DNA of 64,000 nt from Pseudomonas sp. TMP9 (GTDB lineage Bacteria > Pseudomonadota > Gammaproteobacteria > Pseudomonadales > Pseudomonadaceae): assembly GCF_037943105.1 (NCBI RefSeq), contig NZ_CP149803.1:682001-746000 (forward strand). The letters run 5' to 3'. The notes under the pieces were generated by a model that was not told the DNA's origin, did not search any database, and was given only the letters and a program-made list of their open reading frames with translations. Below, one piece after another: positions 34,819 to 49,475 of the stretch. A program made the position numbers and the translations under genes. Positions within the stretch are counted from its first letter, which is position 1. Every line of letters starts with the position of its first letter.

Positions 34819-35541
34819 TTATTGCCAGCGCTGGTAAATAGCATCCAAGGCGCCAGCCTGCCTTAAACGTGCCAACGCCGCTGCGAACGCGTCGGCACGC
34901 GCGTGATCGCCTTTGTTAAAGGCTACATAACGCGGCATCTGCACCAGCGGCTTGGCCAAGATGCGCACGCTTTGCTCGGCGCGTTGTTCGTGCACGAAAT
35001 ACAGCAGCTGCAGCCGGTCGCCGACAATCACATCAAAGCGCCCAGCCAACAGCATCGACACCAGTTGACGGGGATTCTGCGCACTGCTGTCGCGGCGCAG
35101 GTCGGCTTTGTCGAATGCCGACTGGTAAGCGTAACCGCGCACTTGACCGACGACATAGGGCGACAGGTCGTCAAATTCGGCCCAATCGGTGAGGTTGGTG
35201 TTAAGCGAGGTCATAAATACGGTGGAGCCCGAGCGCAGCGGCCCCACCAGTTGGTATTGCTGCATGCGCTCCGGTGTGCCGGCGAACTGAAAGGCCATCA
35301 CCACCTCGTTGCGGTCGAGCATGCGCTTGACCCTTTCCCACGGGTAAAGGCGCAGGGTGAAGGGGATCTTGGCTTCGGCCATCACCGCTTGCACCAGTTC
35401 GACATCCAGCCCACGCGGTTGGTTGTCCTCAAGGGTGACAAAACTATAAGGAGCGAATTGCTCGTCCCCCGCCACGTTCCAGCTCTCGGCTGCTAACGCG
35501 CAAGGCATCAGTAGCCACAAAAATAGCGCAGCGATACGCAT
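34819..35541 (-). CDS. Periplasmic solute-binding protein, family 3 (orphan)
   Basis: 240 residues with signal peptide (MRIAALFLWLLMPCALA). The SBP_bac_3 pattern is seen in the N-terminal lobe (EQFAPYSFVTLEDNQPRGLDVELVQAVM) and FTLRLYPWERVKRML. No permease or ATPase is adjacent, so it may serve another transporter, or belong to the orphan polar amino-acid-binding group common in Pseudomonas. Ligand unknown. Confidence 0.8.
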   Translation of the reverse strand: MRIAALFLWLLMPCALAAESWNVAGDEQFAPYSFVTLEDNQPRGLDVELVQAVMAEAKIPFTLRLYPWERVKRMLDRNEVVMAFQFAGTPERMQQYQLVGPLRSGSTVFMTSLNTNLTDWAEFDDLSPYVVGQVRGYAYQSAFDKADLRRDSSAQNPRQLVSMLLAGRFDVIVGDRLQLLYFVHEQRAEQSVRILAKPLVQMPRYVAFNKGDHARADAFAAALARLRQAGALDAIYQRWQ

Positions 35542-36795: not shown

Positions 36796-37599
36796 TTAGA
36801 AGTGGGCGTTAACCAGCAGGTTGGCGGTGTTCTGGTCGGTAGCGCCAACAAAGTTATCGCTAACAAAACCGCTGTCTTCGATGCCGTACTGGTCCTTCCA
36901 GTAGTCGTACTCAATGCCGACGTACAACTGCTTCTCGCCCCAGCTCATGGCTTTGCCTAGATCGTATTTGACCTGCGGGTTGAAGTGCAGGTTGGCGTGG
37001 TAGCTGTTGTCGTTATCGACGACCCAGTGCATAAAGCCGTCGATAACGATATCGGATTTGCCCACTGCGATTGTGTAACCCCATGCCGGCGTAATCTGCC
37101 AGACACCACTGCCATCGCGGCCACCGTCGGTTTGACGGTGGTAGAAATTCAGCGAGAAATAATCGAAACCGGGGATGGCTAGGTCGAAGCCTGGGCCGAT
37201 CAGGTAAGCGTCAACGTCGTCTTCACCGAACTCATAGGTGGTGGCCAGCAGCACGTCCTTGATCGGGCCGAACGCTAGCGTGCTGTTGAGTAGTTTACCG
37301 AACGACAGGCGTGGCGAGAACTCACCATAAAAGCCATGGCCGTCCCCCGCGCCATTGGCCGCATCGGTGTTGTATTTAATGCCATCGACGAAAAAGAACA
37401 GGTCGCCAGCGCTCTAGCCGCTGGCGTGCTCGAAGGTCACGGTTTGCTGAATTTCGGGGTCGACCTTGAAGTTTTCACCGTATAGATAGGTCAGGCTGTT
37501 GTTCTGCCACTGCAACAAATCGCTCACCACGGCCCGACCACCCGCCAGCAGCCCAGCGCTAAAGAGCAAAGAGTTCGGTTCGTCGCTAGGTACTCGAAA
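36796..37599 (-). pseudogene. Tsx-like outer-membrane channel, inactivated by an amber codon
   Basis: Minus-strand remnant of a nucleoside-specific channel (Tsx/OmpK family). Reading from about 37560 downward the frame gives SDLLQWQNNSLTYLYGENF, then VTFEHASG, a TAG at 37416-37414, then SAGDLFFFVDGIKYN and on through LSFGKLL to the C-terminal NANLLVNAHF. In relatives the stopped position is Trp (GWSAGD), a TGG to TAG change. The signal-peptide end is also damaged: the hydrophobic stretch is in two frames and has no ATG. The open 459-base part from 37254 lacks a start and signal peptide and is not a gene by itself. Confidence 0.82.
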
Positions 37600-37763
37600 A
37601 ATGCTGAATTATCGTTTTGCATCCGCCTGAGTGAGCAAGCGGCAGGTGTTTGAGCAAAAGACGAAGGCCTGCATGCCGCAGGCGAGGTCGCGCAAAGCGG
37701 CGCGGGCCGCACTTTAGTGATTTACCTAGGAATGTAAAGCCATCGGGTGCTGGGAGCGGAGCT

Positions 37764-37783
37764 AAAGGACAGTTTTGTCCTTT
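37764..37783 (-). terminator. Hairpin after the RpiR-family gene
   Basis: AAAGGACA-GTTT-TGTCCTTT, a perfect 8-bp stem just beyond the RpiR stop at 37798. Weak T tail. It may end the minus-strand aot-type operon. Confidence 0.55.
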
Positions 37784-37797
37784 GGCGGCGGCGCCAG

Positions 37798-38745
37798 CTA
37801 GCCCTGCTGGGGTGCAGTGCCGGCACGACGCTTAACGGGTTTGCGCGGCGGTTTATCGCTGCTGGACACATGCAAGTAAGACATCACGCTTTCGGTCAGC
37901 TCGGCGGCCAGTTGCACCGCCTCTTTATTGCGCGCCATCACGCCGGCGACCAGACCTTCGATCAGCGCCAGCACCGAGGTGTTGGAGCTGATCAGCACCG
38001 GGTGGTCTGCCGGGGCGAACAACGCATGCTTGGCGATGGTGGTTAGCGGCGAGGCGGGCGAATCAGTGATCGCCAGCACGACCGCGCCGCGCTCGCTGGC
38101 AAAGCGCGAAAGCTGCAGCGTGTCGAGGGAGTAGCGCGGCAAAGAAATCGACAGCAGCACATCATGTTCAGTGATGGTCGCCAGGCGGTAAGCGGCATTT
38201 TCGTTGCCACCCTCCATGCTCACGGCCGTGGCATCGGCGCAGAAGGGGACCAAGTTAGCGGCCGCTAAGCCGGCCATATAGGCGCTGTTGCCGAAGCCGA
38301 GAATGTAGATTTTGCGCGCCTGGATTAGGCAACTGACGAAGGCCTCAAAGGTGTCTGCACTGTTATTGGCACCGGTGGTGGCCAGGTTGCTGCTGGCGAT
38401 TTGCACTTGCTCATGCAGGCCAAAGGCGCCATCGGGGCGGTGGGCCAGTTCATTGCGCAGCTTATCCACCGGCGACACCATTTGCTGCAGGGTGCACAGC
38501 AGTTCGGCTTTCAGCCCGGTGTAACCGCCCAGGTCGATGGCCTTGGCCAGACGGTTGACTGCGGCCGGTGAGGTGGCTGTTGCCACCGCCATTTCCTCGA
38601 TGGTCAAGGTCGCGGCTTTCAAAGGGTGACGCAGGATAAAGTCAGCCACCTTACGCAGCGAAGGCTGCAGGTGCGGGGCGATTTCCGCCAGCTTGCGCAT
38701 CACTGGAGCGGCGTAGACGGTTAGGTTCTTGGCAGAAGTCGGCAT
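37798..38745 (-). CDS. RpiR/HexR-family transcriptional regulator
   Basis: 315 residues from ATG 38745. N-terminal RpiR helix-turn-helix (LTIEEMAVATATSPAAVNRLAKAI, about 40-65) and C-terminal SIS domain (KIYILGFGNSAYMAGLAAAN; LLSISLPRYSLDTLQLSRFA). SIS domains usually bind phosphosugars, yet this gene sits at the end of the arginine/dipeptide transporter operon where P. aeruginosa has argR. A candidate operator is in the divergent control region at 43418-43450. An ATG at 38850 would extend the protein by 35 residues without known homology. Predicted repressor; ligand unknown. Confidence 0.88.
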   Translation of the reverse strand: MPTSAKNLTVYAAPVMRKLAEIAPHLQPSLRKVADFILRHPLKAATLTIEEMAVATATSPAAVNRLAKAIDLGGYTGLKAELLCTLQQMVSPVDKLRNELAHRPDGAFGLHEQVQIASSNLATTGANNSADTFEAFVSCLIQARKIYILGFGNSAYMAGLAAANLVPFCADATAVSMEGGNENAAYRLATITEHDVLLSISLPRYSLDTLQLSRFASERGAVVLAITDSPASPLTTIAKHALFAPADHPVLISSNTSVLALIEGLVAGVMARNKEAVQLAAELTESVMSYLHVSSSDKPPRKPVKRRAGTAPQQG

Positions 38746-38877
38746 GGATGGGCTTTCAGCACGTTGAATGATCGGGCGTACGCGCCGGGTTGAGGCGGTT
38801 CGGGGTGATTGCGCCTGAAGTGTATCCGAAGCCGACTGCAGCTGGAGCACTGCGCGCGGTTGGTTTGGCCGAGGGCT

Positions 38878-39645
38878 TTATTTCAGGCTGCCGGCCAGAA
38901 ACTGCTGCAAACGCTCGGATTTGGGCTGGGCCAGCACCTCACGCGGGCAGCCACTTTCTTCAACGCAACCCTTATGCAGGAACAGCAACTGGTTAGACAC
39001 CTCGCGGGCAAAACCCATTTCATGGGTTACCACCACCATGGTACGGCCTTCTTGGGCCAGGTCCTGCATGACCTTGAGCACCTCGCCAACCAGTTCTGGG
39101 TCTAGGGCCGAGGTCGGTTCATCGAACAGCATCACCTCCGGCTCCATCGCCAGGGCGCGGGCGATGGCCACGCGTTGCTGTTCGCCACCGCTCATGTGCG
39201 CGGGGTAAGCATCTTTGCGGTGCGCCACGCCGACTTTCGCCAGGTAGTGTTCGGCTTTTTCCCGTGCGTCCTTTTTGCTCATGCCGAGGACATGCACCGG
39301 CGCTGCCATGACATTGTCGAGGGCGCTCATGTGCGACCACAGGTTGAAGTGCTGAAAGACCATGGCCAGGCGTGAGCGCATGCGTTGCAGCTGCTTAGTA
39401 TCGCTGGCCTTGAGCGCACCGCTGGCGCGGTTTGGTTGCAGTTTTAGCTGTTCATTGTTGAGCAGGATGCGGCCGCTGTGCGGTTGCTCCAGCAGGTTAA
39501 TGCAGCGCAGGAAGGTGCTCTTACCTGAGCCGCTGGAGCCGATGATGCTGATCACATCGCCCGCCTTAGCCGTCAGGGAGACGCCCTTTAGCACCTCATG
39601 GCTGCCATAGCGTTTGTGCAGGTTGTCGATTTCTAAGGTGTACAT
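38878..39645 (-). CDS. aotP: AotP-type amino acid ABC transporter ATPase
   Basis: ATPase of a polar amino acid importer (HisP/AotP family). 255 residues from ATG 39645. Walker [10 protein letters not shown] at 36-44, signature [15 protein letters not shown], Walker [16 protein letters not shown], and the switch His in VVVTHEMGF. Same strand and close to the cphZ, aotM, aotQ and aotJ homologues, in the P. aeruginosa aotJQMOP order, so it energises that importer. It is followed after 132 bases by the RpiR gene. Confidence 0.93.
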
Positions 39646-39665
39646 AGCAACGGGCTCTCTTATTT

Positions 39666-40778
39666 TTAGTCGGTAAGCAGGCGGCCTTGGCGAATCGGTT
39701 GCGTGCCGGCGACTTTGGCCAGCCAAAGGCCGGGCTGGGCGTAGCGTAGACGCTCGCGGGCATAGAGGATTCCTGACGTGGTGGCGTGCACCACCGAGTG
39801 CTGATCGCTCAGCGGGTCGATCACCTCAAACAACGGGTCACCGACCTCTACCTGCGCGCCCAGCGGTTGCAGAAAACTCACCACGCCAGGGTGTGGTGCA
39901 TACGCGTATTGCGCGCCGGCAAAGGGTGTGGCTGCGCAGCAGGCGAGGGGCGCCGGCGCCCAGTCACCGCTGATCAGGCCTTGGTCGGCGAGAAAGCCCA
40001 GAATATCGTCGGCACTCTGCTGCGCTTGGTCGCGGTCGGTGTCGGCCATGCCGCGCAACTCAATGGTGGCGGCTAGGCAGGCCAGAGGGATGTTGGCCTC
40101 AGGGTGACGCTCAGCTAAGCGTAACCAGGTGACGGCGCAGGCTTCATCGAAGGAGTTGCCGCCGCTGTCTTCAGCCAGCAGAACCGCACCGGCGCGCAAA
40201 CGGGTAGCCAATGATTTTAGCTGAGGCCAGTTTTGCGGTAGGGCATAGAGCAGCATGATTGACTCAAAATCACAGTGCAGGTCGAGCACCACATCAGCGT
40301 CGCAAGCGTGCTGCAGCAGTAAGCGGCGCAGGCCGTCCAGCTCTGATTTAGCGGGCGGCAATGCGCCAATGGCCGCGCGCATCAGGCGGCGAATTATCCT
40401 CACGTTGGCCTGGGCATCGTCACCCAGTTGACCTTCAAGCTGTGGCGCAATCAGCTCGGCCAGTGCGGGAAAGTCGCGATTGAAGTTCTGCCCGCTGGCC
40501 AGATCAAAACGGCCTTGGTGAGTGGCCTGAAACATCTGCCCCAGGCCAATCGGGTTGGCCACCGGCACCAGTTCGATCACCCCCTGTAAACGGCCCTGTT
40601 GTTCTAACTCGGCCAGGCGCTGTTTAAGTTCGATCGCCACGCGCATGCCGGGTAATTCATCGGCATGCAGAGCGGCCTGGATATAGGCCTTGCGTGGGCC
40701 ACTGCCATAACGGAACAGCGACAGCCGTCTCTCCGTTCCCGCCGTGCTCCAGGGCAGTTGGTGTTGAATATGTTCCAT
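39666..40778 (-). CDS. cphZ: CphZ/AotO, beta-aspartyl-arginine (cyanophycin dipeptide) hydrolase
   Basis: 370-residue zinc hydrolase of the AstE/aspartoacylase M14-like family. Likely zinc ligands are H38 and E41 in LHADE and H168 in DLHCDF; the NFNR motif is at 98-101 and the probable catalytic Glu is E240 in ATIELRG. The aotO gene of the P. aeruginosa aot operon was recently reported to encode CphZ, which splits beta-Asp-Arg to Asp and Arg (recalled, not checked). Here it lies between aotM and aotP in the same order, and close to two cyanophycinase genes, which supports that role directly. A succinylglutamate desuccinylase is the alternative. Confidence 0.85.
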   Translation of the reverse strand: MEHIQHQLPWSTAGTERRLSLFRYGSGPRKAYIQAALHADELPGMRVAIELKQRLAELEQQGRLQGVIELVPVANPIGLGQMFQATHQGRFDLASGQNFNRDFPALAELIAPQLEGQLGDDAQANVRIIRRLMRAAIGALPPAKSELDGLRRLLLQHACDADVVLDLHCDFESIMLLYALPQNWPQLKSLATRLRAGAVLLAEDSGGNSFDEACAVTWLRLAERHPEANIPLACLAATIELRGMADTDRDQAQQSADDILGFLADQGLISGDWAPAPLACCAATPFAGAQYAYAPHPGVVSFLQPLGAQVEVGDPLFEVIDPLSDQHSVVHATTSGILYARERLRYAQPGLWLAKVAGTQPIRQGRLLTD

Positions 40779-40787
40779 GGGTTTCCC

Positions 40788-41483
40788 TTAGTTCTTGCGC
40801 GGGGCCAGGTGGACCAGCCAGCGGCCTTCGGCCAGTTTGAACAGGCGCACCAAAATAAACGTCAGCGCCAGGTAAAACAGCCCGGCAGTGATAAAGGCCT
40901 CGAAGGGCATGTAATAGCGGGCGCTGACGGTGCGTGCCGCGCCAGTGATGTCGATCAGTGTAACGATCGAGGCCAATGAGGTTGTGTGCAGCATCATGAT
41001 CACCTCATTGCTGTACTGCGGCAGCGCCCGGCGCAAGGCTGAGGGCAGCAAAATACGCCGGTACAGGGTAAAGCGCGACATGCCCATGGCCCGCGCCGCT
41101 TCGATCTCGCCATGGGGCGTGGCTTTGAGGCTGCCGGCGAGAATTTCCGCACTGTAGGCGCTGGTATTGATGGCAAACGCCAGGCAAGCACAGAAGGTGG
41201 CGCTGGAGAAGTACGGCCACCACACACTCTCACGCACCGCCGCAAACTGCGCCAGGCCGTAATAGATGAGGAACAGTTGCACCAACATTGGCGTGCCGCG
41301 GATTACATAGGTGTAAAGCCAAGCTGGAGCGTTAAGCAGCGGCGAGCGCGACACGCGCAGCAGCGCCAAGGGGATGGCAAAGGCCAAGCCCAGCGCCAGA
41401 GCAATAATCAGCAGTTTGAGGGTTACCAGTACGCCACCAGCATAAAGCGGCAGGCTGTCGGCTATAACTTGGAAATCGAGCAC
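40788..41483 (-). CDS. aotM: AotM-type amino acid ABC permease (GTG start)
   Basis: 231-residue inner-membrane permease of the HisMQ type. About five hydrophobic segments and the EAA-loop EIEAARAMGMSRFTLYRRILLPSALR (residues about 130-155) that docks the ATPase. The start codon is GTG 41483 (VLDFQV), 15 bases after aotQ. With AotQ it forms the membrane heterodimer of the dipeptide/arginine importer. Confidence 0.92.
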   Translation of the reverse strand: MLDFQVIADSLPLYAGGVLVTLKLLIIALALGLAFAIPLALLRVSRSPLLNAPAWLYTYVIRGTPMLVQLFLIYYGLAQFAAVRESVWWPYFSSATFCACLAFAINTSAYSAEILAGSLKATPHGEIEAARAMGMSRFTLYRRILLPSALRRALPQYSNEVIMMLHTTSLASIVTLIDITGAARTVSARYYMPFEAFITAGLFYLALTFILVRLFKLAEGRWLVHLAPRKN

Positions 41484-41498
41484 GTTAGAAAGTCTCGC

Positions 41499-42188
41499 TT
41501 AGAGTTCGGCCAGGCGGGCGCCCACGCAATAGCGTTTTTCCAGCAGGCGCAGGGCCAGCAGGGAAACCGTGGTCAGCAACAGGTACAGCGCGGCCACCGC
41601 GAGGAAAAAGGTAAAGGGTTCGCGGGTGGCGTCGGCGGCATTTTTTGCTTTGAACATCATGTCCTGCAAGCCCACCACCGAAATCAGTGCGGTGGCTTTG
41701 GTCAACACCAACCAGTTGTTGGTAAAACCGGGGATGGCAAAGCGGATCATCTGCGGCACTAAAACGCGCCAGAACACCTGCATGCCACTCATGCCGTAGG
41801 CTGCACCCGCTTCAGCCTGACCTTTGTCGATGGCCATAAAGGCCCCGCGAAAAGTTTCCGAAAGGTAGGCGCCGAAAATAAAGCCCATGGTGCAGACCCC
41901 GGCGATAAACGGGTTGATGTCAATGTAGTGGTGGTAGCCGAGTAACGGCGCCACACGATTAACCACATCCTGGCCGCCATAGAAAATCAGCAGAATCAAC
42001 ACCAAATCAGGAATGCCGCGAATAATCGTCGAGTAGCCTTCGCCGAGCAGTGCCAACCACCTCAGCGGGGACAGACGAAACGCTGCGCCGACAAGCCCTA
42101 GGGCAATGGCCAAGGTCATGGAAGTCAGGGCCAAGCTGAGGGTCAGCCAAGCGCCCTCGAGAATGGTCGAGCCGTAGCCGTGGAGCAT
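41499..42188 (-). CDS. aotQ: AotQ-type amino acid ABC permease
   Basis: 229 residues with five hydrophobic segments; N terminus MLHGYGSTILEGAWLTLSLAL is characteristic of HisQ/AotQ. The EAA loop is GQAEAGAAYGMSGMQVFWRVLVPQMIR. Partner of the following AotM. Begins 88 bases after the solute-binding gene, consistent with an operon. Confidence 0.92.
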   Translation of the reverse strand: MLHGYGSTILEGAWLTLSLALTSMTLAIALGLVGAAFRLSPLRWLALLGEGYSTIIRGIPDLVLILLIFYGGQDVVNRVAPLLGYHHYIDINPFIAGVCTMGFIFGAYLSETFRGAFMAIDKGQAEAGAAYGMSGMQVFWRVLVPQMIRFAIPGFTNNWLVLTKATALISVVGLQDMMFKAKNAADATREPFTFFLAVAALYLLLTTVSLLALRLLEKRYCVGARLAEL

Positions 42189-42276
42189 GGTGGGTTCCTC
42201 ACGCTTAGGCCGAATGGCCTGCGCTACAACGAGAAAAAGTGCCCCGTTGGGGGCACCCGCCGTTTATCAACAGTGC

Positions 42277-43053
42277 TTACTTGCCGTAAATGTCGAACTC
42301 GAAGTACTTGGCCTGCACATCCTGGTAAGTGCCGTTGGCGCGGATCGCGTCGATAGCAGCGCTGATGCGTGCTGCGTTTTCGCTGTCGCCTTTGCGCACG
42401 GCGATGCCGGCACCGTTACCGAAGTACTTCGGGTCGTTGAAGTCCGGGCCGACTAGAGCAAACCCCTTGCCAGCGTCAGTTTTGATAAAGCCTTCATCGA
42501 TATTGATGATGTCCGCCAAGGTGGCGTCTAAGCGGCCCGAAACCAAGTCAAGGAAGGCTTCGTTCTGCGAGGCGTAACGCACAACGGTGATACCGGCTGC
42601 CTCAAATTGATCAGAAGCAAAACGATCATAGGTGGAGGCGCGTTGCACCCCAACTTTCTTACCTTTGAGGTCGACCAGCGGGTCATTCACCACGCTGCCA
42701 GCCTTCATGGCCAGCTTGCCGGGGGTGTGGTAGTACTTTTTGCTGAAGTCCACCGACTTCAAGCGGTCTTCGGTGATCGACATGGACGACAGTACCGCGT
42801 CGACCTTGCGCACTTTCAGCGAGGGAATCAGGCCGTCGAATTCCTGCTCGACCCACTGACAAGTGACCTTCATTTCCGCGCACAGGGCATTGCCGATGTC
42901 GTAGTCAAACCCGCTGATATTGCCGTCTGGGGTTTTAAAGGCGAAGGGCGGGTAGGCCGCCTCGATACCGATGCGCAGAGTGTCCTGGCTGGCGAAGCTT
43001 AAAGAGCTGGCGACGCTGAGCGCCAGTGCGCCGAGAAGTGCGATCTTGTTCAT
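42277..43053 (-). CDS. aotJ: AotJ-type periplasmic solute-binding protein
   Basis: First gene of the minus-strand operon: signal peptide (MNKIALLGALALSVASSLSFA), then SBP_bac_3 lobes (IGIEAAYPPFAFKTPDGNISGFDYDIGNALCAEM; DGLIPSLKVRKVDAVLSSMSITEDR). 258 residues from ATG 43053, which follows an AGGAGT ribosome site. In P. aeruginosa the protein was first assigned to arginine/ornithine; in this context beta-Asp-Arg is an equally likely ligand. Selectivity cannot be read from sequence alone. Confidence 0.9.
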   Translation of the reverse strand: MNKIALLGALALSVASSLSFASQDTLRIGIEAAYPPFAFKTPDGNISGFDYDIGNALCAEMKVTCQWVEQEFDGLIPSLKVRKVDAVLSSMSITEDRLKSVDFSKKYYHTPGKLAMKAGSVVNDPLVDLKGKKVGVQRASTYDRFASDQFEAAGITVVRYASQNEAFLDLVSGRLDATLADIINIDEGFIKTDAGKGFALVGPDFNDPKYFGNGAGIAVRKGDSENAARISAAIDAIRANGTYQDVQAKYFEFDIYGK

Positions 43054-43392
43054 TTTATTGACTCCTGAATGGGGCGTTTGGGTGTGGGCCAACCACTAGG
43101 TTGTGGTTCGCGGTCAACGGGTGCTGCTTGTAGCAATGGTCTCGTCAAAAGGTGAGGCGTTCAACCTGAAGCCTTGTGAGCTTCTGTGGGGTCAGACCGG
43201 GCAAGGTGGCCAAGCCCGGCGTCTCAGTGAGCTAGTTTGTGACATGTTTATTTTCATAAAGCTACTAATTAGAAATATTTGTGTCAAATGAGTTTTACCG
43301 GATCAGCGGTTGAAACCTGTCTAGAACGGCGTTTACCTGCGGATAAAGTTTTTTCTGCGCCGTCTGCGCGGGTTGACCCAGCCGTTAAAAGC

Positions 43393-43421
43393 TTGATCGG
43401 GTATTCCTGTTGGTATATAAA
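43393..43421 (+). promoter_or_regulatory. Candidate promoter of the cyanophycinase arm
   Basis: TTGATC (43393-43398), 17-base spacer, TATAAA (43416-43421). Its -10 overlaps the inverted repeat at 43418-43450, the geometry of a repressed promoter. The predicted transcript start would be about 130 bases before the 43558 ATG. Confidence 0.55.
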
Positions 43422-43450
43422 TTTTCACATTACTAGATTGTGAAAATTTA
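43418..43450. promoter_or_regulatory. Perfect 12-bp inverted repeat, candidate RpiR operator
   Basis: TAAATTTTCACA (43418-43429) and TGTGAAAATTTA (43439-43450) are exact reverse complements with a 9-base spacer, in the 504-base divergent gap (43054-43557) between aotJ and the SLH cyanophycinase gene. Nothing in the gap looks coding. The AT-rich part of the gap (about 43230-43450) also holds the small palindrome ATTTG-TGT-CAAAT (43277-43289) and a weakly similar TTTATTTTCATA at 43247. The link to the RpiR protein is inference from position. Confidence 0.6.
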
Positions 43451-43557
43451 AATTCACGCTCAGATCGCCAGAGCTGACGAGGTGTTTGCTGCAGCAAGAA
43501 TGCGTTGCGAAAGTGAAAGGGCGCCTCACATGACATCTAATAACAAGAGCAAAAACC

Positions 43558-45327
43558 ATGAAAAAGCAGCTGAATAAACGCGTGGCGGTGGCCACCTTAA
43601 TCCTTGCCTGTGCGAGCTCTGCGGCCCTGGCCGACGGTAACCTGCTGGCCGTTGGCGGTATGTTGCGCGCCGGCAACTCGCCGGTGTATGCCAAGTTCAT
43701 CGAGCTGGCCGGTGGCCAGCAAGAGGCGCGCATTGTGATACTGCCAACCGCCAGCGGCAGCCAAGGTTCGAGCAAGCGCTTTATGGGTGAGTTGGTGGCC
43801 TTGGGTATCCCGGCCGAGCGCATCAGCATTGTCGCCGTCGACAAGAGCAACTACCAAACCAGCATGAACGATGCCGCCGTGCTCAAGCCACTGAGCGAGG
43901 CCAGTGCGGTGTGGTTCGTGGGGGGTGATCAGGCGCGTATCGCCCGTGCGCTGTTCAATGCTGACGGCAGCCCGTCGCTGCTGATGAAGGCCGTGCGCAC
44001 GGTGTATGACAAGGGCGGCGTGGTCGCTGGCACCAGCGCCGGTGCCAGCATCCTCGGTGCGCAGATGCCCACTGCCTATGGCGTGGTGATGGACACCCTG
44101 GACTTCGGCGTGGCCAGCAAGGCCGACCAACGCGGCGCTGCGGTACTGAAAGGTGCGGGCCTGTTCAGCGCCGGGATCATCGATCAACACCTCGACCAGA
44201 TTGAGGAAACCAGCACCGGCCGTGCAGCCCGCATGGCCGCCTACTTAGCCGGGCAGAAAGCCAGCAAAGGCTTCGGTCTGGACACCAATACCGCCATGTG
44301 GGTGAACGCCGAGGGCCAGGTGCAGGTGCTTGGCGAGGGTTACCTGACGGTGATGGACGCAGGCCAGGCGCAGAAAACCTTCGGTGTCTATGGCACGCAG
44401 CTAAGCAACGTGCGCCTGGCCATGCTTGGCCATGGCGACCGCTATGACTTGGCCAGCGGCACGGTGCAGCCGGCTGAAGGCAAAGCAGCTATCGAAGCCG
44501 GTAATGAATACCTGGTGGGCAACCAGCTGATCACTGACTTGTCTGCCGTGTCAGCGATTGGTCGGGCAGTGCTCTACGGTCTGGCGGACAACACGGCAAT
44601 GCGCCAAGTCGGCTTGATGACCCGCTATAACCCGCTTAATGGCTACCACTATGGCTACCGTTTCGAATTCAGCAAAACCGCTGATTTCAGCGCCCATAGC
44701 CAGTTCTACGATGCGCTGACCAATTACACCGTCGATGGCGTGCGCCTGGATATTCGTCCGGTCAACGCCAACCTTGGCGACCCGGCTACAAGCGCGCCGC
44801 AGGATGCCGGCAATGGCCCGGCGGGCGATGCGATTCGCGCCGTGAGCTTCCGTGGCCTGATGACGCTTAACGGCCAGAACGCCTTCGAGCCGCAACGGCC
44901 AATCACCCGCCTGGAGTTGGCCAATGCCCTGCAGATGACCCTCGCTGCGGAGCCTAAGCTGGATGCCCTGCCCAAACTGGCGGACATCAGCGCCGATGAC
45001 CCGATGCGCGATCAGCTCAACGTGGTGCTTTCCAATGGCTGGATGACCAGCGCCGAGGCGTTTGCCGGTAACCAGCCGGTCACTCGCAAGGAATGGGCGC
45101 TGGCCTGCAAGGCATTGGTCGAGCGTTATCAGGGCCTCAGCCTGGCAAAAAGCGCCGCGCTGACTGACCTCGAGGGTGTCGATAAAGCCTCCGCTGAGGC
45201 GGCCAGTCTGACCGTGGGCGAGGGCTGGTTGCAGGCTGAACAAGGCCGCTTCAACCCGGAGGCATCGGTTACCCGCGCTGAAGTGGCGCAGGCCCTGGCC
45301 AAGGTCAGTGGCTTGCTCACGCTGTGA
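43558..45327 (+). CDS. S51-family cyanophycinase-like protein with C-terminal SLH repeats
   Basis: Secreted (signal peptide about 1-25, ending SAALA before DGNLL). The S51 peptidase domain (about 28-275) keeps the nucleophile elbow AGTSAGA with Ser160, GGDQAR near 122-127, the DQH motif at 209-211 and LDTNTA at about 241-246, as in cyanophycinases. A linker domain follows to about 420, then three S-layer-homology-like repeats (about 430-465, 474-520, 536-585; each with a P(I/V)TR.E.A-like core). 589 residues. SLH repeats suggest surface attachment. Predicted to cut cyanophycin to beta-Asp-Arg; activity is inferred. Confidence 0.8.
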   Translation: MKKQLNKRVAVATLILACASSAALADGNLLAVGGMLRAGNSPVYAKFIELAGGQQEARIVILPTASGSQGSSKRFMGELVALGIPAERISIVAVDKSNYQTSMNDAAVLKPLSEASAVWFVGGDQARIARALFNADGSPSLLMKAVRTVYDKGGVVAGTSAGASILGAQMPTAYGVVMDTLDFGVASKADQRGAAVLKGAGLFSAGIIDQHLDQIEETSTGRAARMAAYLAGQKASKGFGLDTNTAMWVNAEGQVQVLGEGYLTVMDAGQAQKTFGVYGTQLSNVRLAMLGHGDRYDLASGTVQPAEGKAAIEAGNEYLVGNQLITDLSAVSAIGRAVLYGLADNTAMRQVGLMTRYNPLNGYHYGYRFEFSKTADFSAHSQFYDALTNYTVDGVRLDIRPVNANLGDPATSAPQDAGNGPAGDAIRAVSFRGLMTLNGQNAFEPQRPITRLELANALQMTLAAEPKLDALPKLADISADDPMRDQLNVVLSNGWMTSAEAFAGNQPVTRKEWALACKALVERYQGLSLAKSAALTDLEGVDKASAEAASLTVGEGWLQAEQGRFNPEASVTRAEVAQALAKVSGLLTL

Positions 45328-45341
45328 GCTAAATCGGCACG

Positions 45342-45360
45342 CGCCGCGCAGTTCGCGGCG
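45342..45360 (+). terminator. GC hairpin after the SLH cyanophycinase gene
   Basis: CGCCGCG-CAGTT-CGCGGCG (45342-45360), without a T run (GTTAACC follows). It may attenuate rather than end transcription, leaving the downstream genes on the same transcript. Confidence 0.4.
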
Positions 45361-45399
45361 TTAACCCGCCCCCATTGCATATTCACCTAAGAGCCCTGT

Positions 45400-45723
45400 A
45401 TGCAAATCAGCAGTTTGGAATCGTTCGCCCTGGAAAAGCTCTTGCAGCCTCAGGCTAATCACGCCTTAGCCACCGCCCAGCCTGCGCTGCGGGTGCTGGA
45501 GCGGGTGCAAACCAGTGCTGGCTTCTATTCGATCATCCAATTTCCGAAAAGCCTGCGCGCGCTGCAGGAGAGCGTCGAGCTGGAGTGGTCATTCAAGCTC
45601 AAGCGATTGAAAGCAAGAGGGTATTTTATTTGCTGGGCCGAGTCGGAAACGACCCTGTGCCTGGAGGCCGTGATCAGCAAGGGCGTGTGCCCGCCTGAGC
45701 TGTCGCTGGAGCAGTTTGCTTAG
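45400..45723 (+). CDS. Uncharacterised 107-residue protein in the cyanophycin locus
   Basis: No signal peptide or transmembrane segment. Features: an acidic N terminus (SLESFALEKLL), VLERVQTSAGFYSIIQFPKSL, then a basic stretch (WSFKLKRLKARGYFICWAE) and LCLEAVISKGVCPPELSLEQF; three Cys. I do not recognise it. Lies 72 bases after the SLH cyanophycinase and 77 before the porin, on the same strand, so it is probably co-expressed. The base composition matches the neighbours, which supports a real gene. Confidence 0.6.
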   Translation: MQISSLESFALEKLLQPQANHALATAQPALRVLERVQTSAGFYSIIQFPKSLRALQESVELEWSFKLKRLKARGYFICWAESETTLCLEAVISKGVCPPELSLEQFA

Positions 45724-45800
45724 TGGCAGTGCTGGAAAGAATGCGTCGCTGCCCAGCGGCGGATTTTAGAGATGTTCAATAATAACCAATGGAGTAAGCC

Positions 45801-47084
45801 ATGAACGTTGTAAAACTGAGCCTGATCGCCCTGGCTGTCGCCGCGGCCAGCTCGCAATTCGCCGTCGCCGGTGAGCAGCAGGAGTCCAAGGGCTTTATCG
45901 AAGACAGCACGCTGACGCTGATCAACCGCAACCTGTATATGCAGCGCAATTTCGTTAACAGCCAGCGCAACACCCGTGAAGAGTGGGCCCATGGCATGCA
46001 CCTCAACTACGCCTCTGGTTTCACTCAGGGCACTGTGGGCGTGGGTGTTGATGCGTATGCCTATGGCGGGATCAAACTTGACGGTGGCCGCGGTAGCGTG
46101 GGTAACGGCATTCTGCCGGTTGACGGTGACGGCCGCATCGAAGACAACACCGGTGAAATGGGTGGTGCGGTGAAGGCACGTATTTCCTCCACCGAGCTGA
46201 AGTTTGGCGAGATGCGTCCGACTGCACCGGTTTTTGCCACCGGTGATTCACGTCTGCTGCCAGAAACCGCCACGGGTTTTCAGTTGTTCAGTCACGAAAT
46301 CGACAATCTGTCGCTTGAGGCCGGTCACTTCACCGCCATCAACCGCCGCAACTCCAGCAACTCCGATGGCGCGCTGACCAGCGAGTACGCTGAGGTCGAA
46401 GCGCGCAGCGTCGATTTCCTCGGCGGTACCTACAACTTCAACGACAACCTCAGTGTGGCGTTCTATGGCAGCGAAGCCGAAGACCTCTGGCGTCAGTACT
46501 TCGGTAACGTCTACTACACCATCCCGTTGTCCGACGAGCAGTCGTTGAACTTCGACCTAGTGGCTTACAAGACCAGCGACCAGGGCAAGTCCTTGGCCGG
46601 TGAGCTGGACACCCTGACCTACTCGATCAAGGGTGCCTACAGCTTTGGCGCGCACAAGGTCAGCCTGGCGTACCAGAAGGTTAACGGTGATGAGTTCTTC
46701 GACTACATCGGTGGCGACTCGATCTGGCTGGCCAACTCGGTGCAGTACTCCGACTTCAACGCCCCTAATGAGCGTTCCTTCCAGGTGCGCTACGACCTGA
46801 ACATGGCGACGTTTGGCGTGCCGGGCCTGAGCTTTATGGCGCGTTACATCAAGGGTGATCAGATTGATGGCACCAAGGCCGATCCAAATGGTTCCTTCGC
46901 GGGTTGGGCGGGCGATGACGAGAAGCATTGGGAGCGTGATCTGGAAGCCAAGTACGTGGTGCAGTCCGGCGCTGCCAAGGATCTATCCCTGCGTCTGCGT
47001 CAGGCCACCCATCGCTCCACAGCCTTTGACAATGACTTGCAGGATGTCCGCCTGATCGTCGAATACCCGCTGAGCATTTTGTAA
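45801..47084 (+). CDS. OprD-family outer-membrane porin
   Basis: 427 residues: signal peptide (MNVVKLSLIALAVAAASSQFAVA), then the OprD pattern IEDSTLTLINRNLYMQRNFV, REEWAHGMHLNYASGFTQG, VKARISSTELKFGEMRPTAPVF and ATGFQLFSHE, a strand-rich body, and the C-terminal barrel end VRLIVEYPLSIL. OprD-type porins take basic amino acids and small peptides. Its place inside a cyanophycin locus suggests it is the outer-membrane entry for beta-Asp-Arg; the substrate is inferred. GGAG-type ribosome site before the ATG. Confidence 0.92.
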   Translation: MNVVKLSLIALAVAAASSQFAVAGEQQESKGFIEDSTLTLINRNLYMQRNFVNSQRNTREEWAHGMHLNYASGFTQGTVGVGVDAYAYGGIKLDGGRGSVGNGILPVDGDGRIEDNTGEMGGAVKARISSTELKFGEMRPTAPVFATGDSRLLPETATGFQLFSHEIDNLSLEAGHFTAINRRNSSNSDGALTSEYAEVEARSVDFLGGTYNFNDNLSVAFYGSEAEDLWRQYFGNVYYTIPLSDEQSLNFDLVAYKTSDQGKSLAGELDTLTYSIKGAYSFGAHKVSLAYQKVNGDEFFDYIGGDSIWLANSVQYSDFNAPNERSFQVRYDLNMATFGVPGLSFMARYIKGDQIDGTKADPNGSFAGWAGDDEKHWERDLEAKYVVQSGAAKDLSLRLRQATHRSTAFDNDLQDVRLIVEYPLSIL

Positions 47085-47162
47085 GGCAGTCGCCGGCCGC
47101 TGATGCTGGTGAAGCGGTCGGTTGTTTATTCAAGGTCAGCTCCCATTGCTCCTTTGGCCTTA

Positions 47163-47187
47163 AGGCGCCCTCTGTGGCGCCTCTTTT
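47163..47187 (+). terminator. Terminator after the porin gene
   Basis: AGGCGCC-CTCTGT-GGCGCCT (47163-47182) then CTTTT. Probable terminator, so the next gene may have its own promoter. A second palindrome, TGGCCTC-T-GAGGCCA, lies at 47202-47216. Confidence 0.7.
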
Positions 47188-47255
47188 CCCGGTTTAGAGC
47201 CTGGCCTCTGAGGCCAAGGTTGTCATTCCTGAGAGCACTTACAAGGGGCACCGAC

Positions 47256-48020
47256 ATGCTACGAACAAGCCTATTTTTGCTGAGCGTGATGCTGCTGGGC
47301 AGCGTTCAGGCGCAGCCTTTGCGTATCGCCATGGAAGGGCAGTTCCCGCCCTTCGAACAGGTCGATGCGAATGGCCAATTGCGCGGCTTCAATGTCGACA
47401 TCGCCCAGGCTTTGTGTCAGGTCATGGCGGCCGATTGCCAACTGCTGCGCTTTGCCTGGGATGACCTAATCCCCTCGCTTAACGAGCAGCGTAGCGATCT
47501 GATTTTGGCCTCAATGTCGATCACCGCGCAGCGCGCTGAATTAGTCGACTTCACCGCCAAATATGCGCAAACCCCGGCCTTCTTTTTTGCCCGTAAGGGC
47601 CAGATCAACCAAGTGATCATCACCCCAAGGCGCATCGCCGGTAAACGCCTGGGCGTGCAGCGTGACACCACCTATGACCGTTTCCTCACCGACAAATACC
47701 AGCAGCACACCGAAGTGCTGCGTTTCGACTCCGCCGCAGGCATGTACCAAGCGCTTGCCCAGGGGCAGGTTGATCTGGTGCTGGATGATGCGGTGTCCGG
47801 TTACTTTGGTTTTCTCGAAACCGAACAAGGTCAGGGGTTTGAGCAGGTCGGCAACAAGGTGGTCGCGCCCAAACACTTTGGCAAAGGCCAGGGTATCGCC
47901 GTGCGCAAAGGTGACCACGTGCTGCGTGAGCGGCTGGACAGGGCGCTGAGCATCATTCTCAGCAATGGCGTCTACAAACGCATCGAGAAGCAGTATTTCA
48001 AACAATTCACCGTGTATTAA
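47256..48020 (+). CDS. Second periplasmic solute-binding protein of the cyanophycin locus
   Basis: 254 residues from ATG 47256, after AAGGGG. Signal peptide MLRTSLFLLSVMLLGSVQA. SBP_bac_3 pattern: RIAMEGQFPPFEQVDANGQLRGFNVDIAQALC, DDLIPSLNEQRSDLILASMSITAQRAELVDF, very like AotJ in plan. No permease is adjacent, so it may feed the same AotQMP importer with another ligand, for example the dipeptide. An in-frame start at 47103 would add a leader without homology. Confidence 0.87.
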   Translation: MLRTSLFLLSVMLLGSVQAQPLRIAMEGQFPPFEQVDANGQLRGFNVDIAQALCQVMAADCQLLRFAWDDLIPSLNEQRSDLILASMSITAQRAELVDFTAKYAQTPAFFFARKGQINQVIITPRRIAGKRLGVQRDTTYDRFLTDKYQQHTEVLRFDSAAGMYQALAQGQVDLVLDDAVSGYFGFLETEQGQGFEQVGNKVVAPKHFGKGQGIAVRKGDHVLRERLDRALSIILSNGVYKRIEKQYFKQFTVY

Positions 48021-48130
48021 CCGAAGGAGTCAGCCACCCAGAAAGCTATGCCGCGTTATTTGCAGCAGTTCCCGTTTTACAACACCCACAATAAACGTGC
48101 GCCGAGCGCACATTTCGGAGAACTCAAACC

Positions 48131-49390
48131 ATGATCAAATCACTTATGCGATGCAGCGCTTTGCTGCTCGCCCTTTTACCCGTCACCGGTTACAGCGCCG
48201 GCCCGCTGATATTGATTGGCGGCGGCCTCAAGGATGACAACACGGCGATCTATCAGCGCTTGATTCAACTGGCCGGTGGCAGCGGCCAGGCACGGATCGG
48301 CGTGATCACTGCCGCCTCGGTCCCAGAAAGCGCCGACCCGAATGCCGGTACGGTTGAAGCTAAAAACTCACGCGCCAATGGCGAGTTCTACGCTCAATTG
48401 CTAGAGACGTATGGCGCGGCCGATGCGCAATGGATTCCCATCGATCTGGATCAGCTCAGTAACAACAGCAACCCGCAGGTGGTCGCGCAGATCAACAGCA
48501 TGACCGGCTTCTTCTTCGGCGGTGGCGATCAGTCGCGCCTGACCCGGACCCTGCAAACGACGACCCGTGCCGACAGCCCGGCACTGGCGGCGATTCGTGC
48601 GCGGCACAACGCGGGTGCAGTATTGGCGGGTACCAGTGCGGGTACCGCAATCATGGTGCAGGGCCCTATGGTGACTGGCGGCGAAAGCTATGACGGGCTG
48701 CGTTATGGCGTCTACACCTCGCCCGGTGATGATGACCTGGCTTACGACATGCAGGGCGGTTTTGGCTTCTTCAACTATGGCTTACTCGATACCCACTTCA
48801 GCGAACGTGGCCGTCAGGGCCGTATCGTGCGCCTGGCTGATTACACCCAAGTACCGTTTGCCTTTGGCGTTGATGAAAACACTGCGTTGCTGGTGCAAAA
48901 CAACCCAACCTTGGGCCAGGTAGAGATGGAGGTCATCGGTGCGGCAGGGGTGTTTGTCTTTGACCTGCGTAACAAAGAGCGCGGCACCGGCAGCAACTAC
49001 GCCGTGTATGACGTGCTGGGCAGCTACCTCACTGCGGGTGATCGCTACCGTCCGGCAACCGGTCAGTTCGTGATCGCCACTGGCAAGACCAGCCTGCGCG
49101 GGCGTGAACGCTACAGCTCGGCGATGACCACGAGCACCGATATTTTCAGCAGCCCGGATAACAGCGGTACCGCTGGCCGGCGCAAGCCGCGCGAGTTCGT
49201 TACGGTCAGCGCGGATCTGTTCGACAGTCGCGCCACCAGCACGCTGGGGCGCACCTACGAGACCAATCCACGCTTTCGTGTTGATTTCATCAAGAGCAGC
49301 CAGTTTGACAGCCGCGGCTACCAAGGCACCATCGGCGGCAAGAACATGCTGTCTTACCTGCGTCTGCTGATGGATTTTCGCCCTAACTAA
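48131..49390 (+). CDS. cphE: CphE, extracellular cyanophycinase
   Basis: 419 residues, close to what I recall for the P. anguilliseptica CphE. Signal peptide (about 1-23, ending YSA). The S51 domain: ILIGGGLKDDNTAIYQRL at the N terminus, GGGDQSRL (130-137), the serine elbow AGTSAGT with Ser169, YGLLDTHFSERGRQGR with D220 and H222, and FGVDENTALLV. The C-terminal part (about 265-419) has no SLH repeats, unlike the other S51 gene. Releases beta-Asp-Arg from cyanophycin outside the cell. GGAGAA ribosome site. Confidence 0.9.
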   Translation: MIKSLMRCSALLLALLPVTGYSAGPLILIGGGLKDDNTAIYQRLIQLAGGSGQARIGVITAASVPESADPNAGTVEAKNSRANGEFYAQLLETYGAADAQWIPIDLDQLSNNSNPQVVAQINSMTGFFFGGGDQSRLTRTLQTTTRADSPALAAIRARHNAGAVLAGTSAGTAIMVQGPMVTGGESYDGLRYGVYTSPGDDDLAYDMQGGFGFFNYGLLDTHFSERGRQGRIVRLADYTQVPFAFGVDENTALLVQNNPTLGQVEMEVIGAAGVFVFDLRNKERGTGSNYAVYDVLGSYLTAGDRYRPATGQFVIATGKTSLRGRERYSSAMTTSTDIFSSPDNSGTAGRRKPREFVTVSADLFDSRATSTLGRTYETNPRFRVDFIKSSQFDSRGYQGTIGGKNMLSYLRLLMDFRPN

Positions 49391-49398
49391 AGTAGTTC

Positions 49399-49475
49399 AG
49401 GCCATCGGCGCTTTTAAGATGGCCTTACTGCACCTGCCATGGGTCGAGATCGTTCAGGGTCTCGGCCTTTTTATT
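49399..49475 (+). terminator. Tandem hairpins ending the cyanophycin arm
   Basis: First hairpin AGGCCATC (49399-49406) with GATGGCCT (49418-49425). The second is GGTCGAGATC with GGTCTCGGCC (49442-49467), followed by TTTTT; it is the real rho-independent terminator. Confidence 0.8.

Follow-up and report, generated by a model that had tools for sequence, protein, structure and literature searches.

A stretch of 64,000 nucleotides from Pseudomonas sp. TMP9 (contig NZ_CP149803.1, positions 682,001 to 746,000; the whole stretch is called the window below) was analyzed, and its positions 37798-49390 very probably form a dedicated, probably inducible locus for scavenging cyanophycin from other bacteria. 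This reading, drawn from sequence comparison, is well supported because CphE and CphZ could be identified, the arrangement is conserved, no gene for cyanophycin synthetase (cphA) scored above cut-off, and the locus has its own regulator and a shared intergenic repeat. In the proposed pathway, the secreted cyanophycinase CphE would cut the polymer outside the cell to β-Asp-Arg dipeptides, which an OprD porin would pass across the outer membrane. Two periplasmic binding proteins would deliver the dipeptides to an AotQMP-type ATP-binding cassette (ABC) importer, and cytoplasmic CphZ would hydrolyse them, releasing Asp and Arg. An RpiR-type regulator would govern both arms of the locus from repeats between them, and a second S51 protein bearing SLH domains (SLH-S51) would be a specialised partner with a rebuilt active site. 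We infer the substrates of the porin and the binding proteins, the target and ligand of the regulator, and the action of SLH-S51.

The locus lies in a single-contig genome of 3.75 Mb and consists of two divergent arms. The left arm reads rpiR-aotP-cphZ-aotM-aotQ-aotJ, while the right arm encodes SLH-S51, a 107-aa protein (hyp107), the porin, a second binding protein (SBP2) and CphE:

37798-38850, minus strand: RpiR/MurR-type regulator (HTH_6 and SIS domains), the locus's own candidate switch; Pfam HTH_6 47.9 bits, SIS 56.2 bits
38878-39726, minus strand: AotP-like ABC ATPase; PF00005, best NCBIfam match HisP with 416.4 bits (below the cut-off of 466)
39666-40778, minus strand: CphZ/AotO, predicted cyanophycin dipeptide (β-Asp-Arg) hydrolase; 8ein/8eip E=2.5e-79, PF24827 49.7 bits
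40788-41483, minus strand: AotM-like permease; open frame, 78-93% identity among the RpiR- and ArgR-type operons read
41499-42188, minus strand: AotQ-like permease; open frame, operon order the same in relatives
42277-43092, minus strand: AotJ-like binding protein of the RpiR-type clade; TIGR01096 272.8 bits (cut-off 256.35)
43240-43286, no strand: predicted operator formed by the inverted repeat TGACAyGTTTATTTTC...GAAATATTTGTGTCA, with 32 bp between half-site starts
43411-43456, no strand: weaker second candidate operator, towards the cyanophycinase arm; second-best pair of the window, score 6.1
43558-45327, plus strand: SLH-S51, resembling S51 peptidases, with SLH domains at the C-terminus and a rebuilt active site; signal-peptide-like start
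45400-45723, plus strand: hyp107, conserved 107-aa protein of unknown fold; by eye without signal peptide
45801-47084, plus strand: OprD-family porin; PF03573 508.3 bits
47103-48020, plus strand: SBP2, second SBP_bac_3 binding protein; PF00497 115.1 bits, TIGR01096 200.9 bits (below the cut-off of 256.35)
48131-49390, plus strand: CphE, extracellular cyanophycinase of 1260 bp and 419 aa; signal-peptide-like start, CphEal residues kept

An earlier note on this DNA had named a porin, two binding proteins and a divergent aot/cphZ arm, all of which were recovered; its parts list, given as complete, lacked hyp107. The SBP2 gene adjoins no permease gene of its own, and its likely start is an internal Met (MLRTSLFLL...). 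A PF03575 search of the genome returned the genes at 43558-45327 and 48131-49390 as the sole S51 genes. Both had been described as secreted peptidases, which agrees with their signal-peptide-like starts and intact Ser elbows; at the position of the catalytic Glu, the SLH protein has Thr.

The CphE gene corresponds to cphE of P. alcaligenes DIP1 and P. anguilliseptica BI, with which it shares a length of 1260 bp, the signal peptide, the triad and the named pocket residues. According to passages of PMC3235067, where a reference dates the cloning of cphE to 2002, CphEal of strain DIP1 has the triad Ser171, His224 and Glu251 and the pocket residues Gln136, Asp222, Thr223, Arg228, Arg230 and Arg233, and CphEal and its relatives convert cyanophycin to β-Asp-Arg. 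In the window protein, the triad (Ser169, His222, Glu249) follows CphEal numbering minus two, and the pocket is formed by Gln134, Asp220, Thr221, Arg226, Arg228 and Arg231. Triad and pocket are kept in 19/19 aligned CphE rows. Where these passages describe the enzyme, the window adds the surrounding locus.

CphZ aligned end to end with 8ein/8eip (residues 8-364), and its motifs HADE, DLHxD and ATxEL matched those of 8ein, with Ala at the last Glu in 8eip. HxxE, DLH and the Glu of ATxE are the metal-ligand or catalytic elements of such enzymes. 8ein and 8eip, whose chains are named succinylglutamate desuccinylase, are presumably CphZ structures, and Sharon et al. are said to have reported in PNAS in 2023 that CphZ/AotO is a cyanophycin dipeptide hydrolase. 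The window gene belongs to the same family and differs in its setting, since it stands in an RpiR-type operon beside cyanophycinase genes and not in an ArgR-type aot operon. Hydrolysis of the cyanophycin dipeptide by the CphZ family is likewise stated in a passage of PMC10206079. The ArgR-type aotJQMP-argR operon of the window genome lies elsewhere (L131, G000:C1:1598000-1614000) and lacks aotO, so that the locus cphZ is the only match in the genome at E≤1e-30. Two close relatives (L132, L133) retain aotO in this operon. The idea that CphZ separates neatly according to operon type was dropped, as the tree needs two changes and one clade is not rejected (approximately unbiased test, p 0.369).

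Conservation of the locus was assessed among 398 Pseudomonadaceae genomes; for CphE, CphZ and RpiR the genome counts are based on the best 4-5 candidates scored in most genomes. The CphE query matched 26 genomes, 19 above 700 bits and 4 with weak partial matches of 19-20 bits. CphE and/or SLH-S51 occurred in 22 genomes, with CphE but not SLH-S51 in two and the reverse in three (G094, G218, G272). Reading of 18-20 kb stretches for 21 relatives gave 22 loci including the window, which contain rpiR (22), aotJ (22), SLH-S51 (20), hyp107 (20), CphE (19), cphZ (17), OprD (17), SBP2 (16) and aotQMP (9); the full set is present in the nine with aotQMP. The arrangement thus recurs in the 21 relatives, and a failure of the two arms to co-occur in other genomes, which the earlier note had named as a refutation of its reading, was not observed. 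Named Pseudomonas contigs, among them those of P. alcaligenes, P. alcaliphila, P. chengduensis, P. guguanensis, P. xionganensis and P. guryensis and partly of the same strains as the 22 genomes, carry SLH-S51, hyp107, OprD, SBP2 and CphE in that order in 21/21 readable cases. One contig cut at CphE (L087) was excluded from these 21, and another (L065) begins inside the SLH gene with its left arm unseen. That the arms are neighbours by chance rather than one system is highly improbable: arm content does differ between genomes, but aotJ lies next to the SLH-S51 gene, in divergent orientation, in 20/20 loci having both and in 20/20 named contigs reaching that far, and the arms share a repeat.

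Scavenging is also supported by the presence and absence of other genes in the 22 genomes. As previously claimed for a synthetase, cphA was absent above cut-off from 22/22 genomes, with weak ATP-grasp/Mur-ligase-type matches below cut-off in all 22. The IaaA family was likewise found in 0/22 genomes, while CphZ was encoded somewhere in 22/22 of them versus 207/376 others.

Relatives of the RpiR regulator (E≤1e-90) were detected in 45/398 genomes, including 22/22 with CphE or SLH-S51 and 23/376 others. In 38/45 (counted by hand) the gene lies within 3 kb of a cphZ, every CphZ position used being among the matches listed. Between the arms, the 47-bp inverted repeat at 43240-43286 scored 16.3, a value reached in 0/200 shuffles, and a strict pattern modelled on it gave one match in the 3.75-Mb genome, at this site (reversed control, 0). 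A repeat pair with both halves above 8 was found in 17/25 RpiR-type regions, namely 10/17 locus regions and 7/8 RpiR operons free of S51 genes, versus 0/8 ArgR-type operons (best -3.3). Half-sites were spaced by 32 in 13 regions and by 33 in four; within the range of 16 to 59, the sole further spacing was 19, seen once. For 23/25 RpiR-type regions, 0/200 first-order shuffles reached the observed pair, and L052 and L053 were weak (9 and 19 of 200). The operator matrix was built from 17 of the 22 locus regions, with L038, L039, L040, L043 and L046 excluded as near-copies; the eight S51-free operons stood outside the matrix and are not fully independent of it, as the word that seeded it had been picked from counts over the full set of 25 regions. 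From these patterns, the RpiR protein likely controls both arms via the predicted operator. Cyanophycin is named as the inducer in P. alcaligenes DIP1 medium in a passage of PMC3235067.

An alternative is a locus devoted mainly to arginine-containing peptides or to free arginine and ornithine, with cyanophycin as one substrate among several. The Pseudomonas aotJQMOP-argR operon, read in eight cases, has the same gene order and families as the left arm, and eight further aotJQMOP operons with RpiR stand outside cyanophycinase loci. In addition, hyp107 relatives adjoin AotJ-like binding proteins (L159, L161), in L159 together with FAD oxidoreductase genes. The locus AotJ falls in a clade of its own, as one branch (support 100/99) separates 31 RpiR-locus rows from 8 ArgR-operon rows. 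In conserved columns, however, the locus and ArgR-type AotJ are near-identical, and with only three diagnostic columns differing, β-Asp-Arg specificity of the binding protein is not established by sequence. The window further departs from the ArgR-type operons in having RpiR in place of ArgR and a repeat pair absent from 8/8 of them. Given that two S51 genes, one of CphE type, lie within the same conserved block, a mainly arginine-directed function appears unlikely.

Like the small number of diagnostic AotJ columns, several other observations weigh against dedicated cyanophycin scavenging. SIS domains typically respond to phosphosugars, which sits awkwardly with a dipeptide as the signal, and the repeat pair is missing or weak in 8/25 RpiR-type regions. 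The locus is modular, with aotQMP absent in 13/22 loci and cphZ absent at the locus in five; the claim that every step can be assigned was therefore too strong, since 13/22 loci have no permease and ATPase of their own, the porin and binding roles are inferred and SLH-S51 activity is uncertain. Where aotQMP is missing, the binding protein presumably uses a permease encoded elsewhere; an ArgR-type set was present in all three genomes of this kind that were inspected (L144, L145, L146). In L042, L043, L047, L049 and L051, rpiR and aotJ occur without an adjoining cphZ, and CphZ is encoded elsewhere in each genome. IadA was found in 0/22 genomes above cut-off, with matches of at most 29.8 bits below cut-off in 11/22, which leaves some room for another dipeptidase. 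The Fisher p values for the co-occurrence of CphZ (5e-6) and of the RpiR relative (5e-24) ignore shared ancestry. With the NCBIfam cyanophycinase model TIGR02069 (cut-off 126.6 bits), CphE scored 125.0 and the SLH protein 113.8; because CphE-type enzymes are active, this cut-off seems tight and undecisive for the CphE group. Finally, passages of PMC3235067 describe expression of cphE in E. coli from its own promoter without inducer, which would suit loss of a Pseudomonas repressor and equally a promoter outside RpiR control.

The active site of the SLH-bearing protein was compared with those of other S51 proteins. The catalytic Ser and His are kept in 20/20 locus rows and 47/47 clade rows, while the catalytic Glu is Thr in 20/20 aligned locus rows and 47/47 clade rows, and a five-residue acidic insert containing EET stands beside the catalytic His. 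The comparison comprised 98 rows, i.e. 91 of 92 database S51 proteins (P0048 was excluded for lack of the S51 region), CphE and SLH-S51 of the window and five further CphE; the database relatives were drawn from the best 7995 candidates by shared words. Thr with an [EK]ET[STV] insert was found in 47 rows, Glu without insert in 50 and Pro without insert in one, so that the insert is present in 47/47 Thr rows and 0/51 others. On a tree built without these columns the trait changes once (SH-aLRT 99), indicating one origin. A 14-row alignment showed Ser160, Asp209, Gln210, His211, Glu216, Glu217 and Thr243 to be invariant.

The pocket was also compared. In the 98-row alignment, Arg180 and Arg183 (CphB numbering) are kept in 47/47 Thr rows, and the Arg178 position is mostly Thr or Ser, also Gly or Ala; this arginine is also lost in some Glu rows, e.g. 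Deinococcus P0053 and P0055. The locus-row alignment places the arginine stretch differently (Glu, Ser, Arg). A loss of two pocket arginines was considered and dropped, as the 98-row alignment and a further comparison show two of three kept. A model of the SLH protein matched the cyanophycinases 7uqv and 3en0 and the SLH domains 3pyw and 6bt4, with a predicted local distance difference test (pLDDT) score of 23-45 over the block of residues 161-220, which makes the active-site geometry unreadable. The best fold and sequence match of the catalytic domain, 7uqv (by its PDB title, pseudo-CphB of Pseudobacteroides cellulosolvens), has Glu where the window protein has Thr, and no publication on it was found in the mostly open-access literature. 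P0053 and P0055 share S51 and SLH domains with the window protein at 41-44% identity, but, unlike it, have the catalytic Glu in place and no EET insert. In a Gammaproteobacteria sample, SLH-S51 was found in 1/293, the window genome.

SLH domains normally bind pyruvylated cell-wall polymer. The pyruvyl transferase CsaB was detected above cut-off in 0/10 genomes, with weak matches in 2/10, and whether and how the SLH protein anchors is therefore uncertain. It is conceivable, though we are doubtful, that SLH-S51 is a dead enzyme retained to assist CphE by binding cyanophycin or by attachment to the cell, as the invariant Thr at the catalytic Glu and the SLH domains would suggest. This does not readily account for the conserved Ser and His, for the two invariant Glu that appear in the insert beside the His, or for the three genomes that carry SLH-S51 but not CphE. 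As two of the three pocket arginines are kept, our estimate for a dead enzyme was lowered slightly. From the alignments, a catalytic SLH-S51 with changed mechanism or specificity appears more likely than a dead one.

CphE loci outside Pseudomonas were also inspected. A contig scan gave 63 CphE loci, from Pseudomonas and others. The 41 others (L085-L126 without L087), mostly from Kitasatospora, Streptomyces and Micromonospora, contained an AotP-like ATPase in 30 (49-54% identity), and in raw counts with no background rate an M20-like peptidase in 31, an RpiR-like regulator in 28 and neither of these two in 10. Pfam confirmed M20 in 5/5 and RpiR with SIS in 2/2 proteins tested. The Tumebacillus locus has M20 and an importer without RpiR, and CphE of Actinomycetota and Tumebacillus (L086, L093-L125) adjoins an amino-acid ABC importer. 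By their position, the M20 enzymes beside CphE are candidates for splitting the dipeptide. According to a passage of PMC10206079, isoaspartyl dipeptidases of Firmicutes and Bacteroidota are still undiscovered.

A more far-reaching reading joins these observations; as a whole, we regard it as tentative and rather unlikely. SLH-S51 would be a distinct class of cyanophycin-attacking enzyme, whose catalytic acid would no longer sit on the DENTA strand but on the inserted EET loop beside the His. It would work close to the cell, cleaving in a different way from CphE or on a different substrate, and would be the sole agent where CphE is absent. The RpiR-family regulator would report the dipeptide, in a pairing that recurs at Actinomycetota CphE, where an M20 peptidase would hydrolyse the dipeptide.

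Searches of hyp107 against Pfam and NCBIfam gave nothing at E≤0.001, and its model (pLDDT 85.6) had no PDB match at the same threshold. It was found in 21/22 genomes with CphE or SLH-S51 (a short partial match in G272) versus 9/376 others. Its relatives adjoin AotJ-like binding proteins without a cyanophycinase also in L162, and in L158 it adjoins rpiR-cphZ-aotJ alone. A role in uptake of arginine conjugates would be a guess.

As to the remaining features, the region has 22 matches to terminator-like hairpins (shuffle mean 15.0), one of which lies downstream of CphE at 49441-49468. The promoter scan gave two sites (shuffle mean 4.0), and no promoter is claimed. Between aotJ and aotQ (42237-42258, minus strand), a hairpin ending in a T-rich tail is of the kind that may raise expression of a binding-protein gene above that of its permeases. 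A further binding-protein-like gene lies nearby (34819-35541, minus strand), and L034, L036 and L038 have relatives of it close to the locus. The locus had been started at 36796, a position that belongs to a broken Tsx-like gene. This gene was ruled out as a working part, because 36796-37254 is a 3' part with an in-frame stop; by our own reading of the gene (36796-37600, minus strand), there is probably also a frame change near its start. Its relatives have an open frame of 264-268 aa in 7/7 cases examined (L034, L036-L040, and L044 at only 50% identity), and intact relatives also lie near the rpiR arm.

The pairing of aot genes with cyanophycinases had been thought new. Titles and abstracts of the mostly open-access literature yielded no publication on the Pseudomonas locus, on its regulator RpiR or on the SLH-bearing S51 form, but gene clusters combining a cyanophycinase, a dipeptidase and a transporter have been published, and the newness of the locus cannot be fully settled. 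A passage of PMC10206079 cites a cyanophycin utilization locus (Ben Hania 2017) with cyanophycinase, isoaspartyl dipeptidase and transporter. The window shares with it, as described there, the clustering of these three functions and the lack of a cphA above cut-off; it differs in having CphZ for IadA/IaaA, an ABC importer with OprD, RpiR, SLH-S51 and hyp107. The chemistry of CphE and CphZ and the concept of such a locus are thus already known. Passages on cyanophycin report gene sets for its synthesis and degradation in Pseudomonas strain AU10 (PMC13101481), a synthetase gene in P. xanthomarina UASWS0955 (PMC5064117) and its use as carbon source by P. seleniipraecipitans ABP-B9 (PMC12239753); the locus is not described in these passages. 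By the first two reports, some pseudomonads are said to make the polymer; all three strains stood outside the genomes tested for cphA.

Taken together, CphE can now be tied to a full putative pathway of uptake and use with a candidate regulator and a predicted operator. With a single origin on the tree, the exchange of Glu for Thr together with an acidic insert is a natural experiment in S51 catalysis, and the M20 peptidases are concrete candidates for β-Asp-Arg hydrolysis in Actinomycetota and one genus of Bacillota. The rebuilt S51 active site is the most surprising of these results, while the regulator-operator pair and the M20 lead may prove the most useful.

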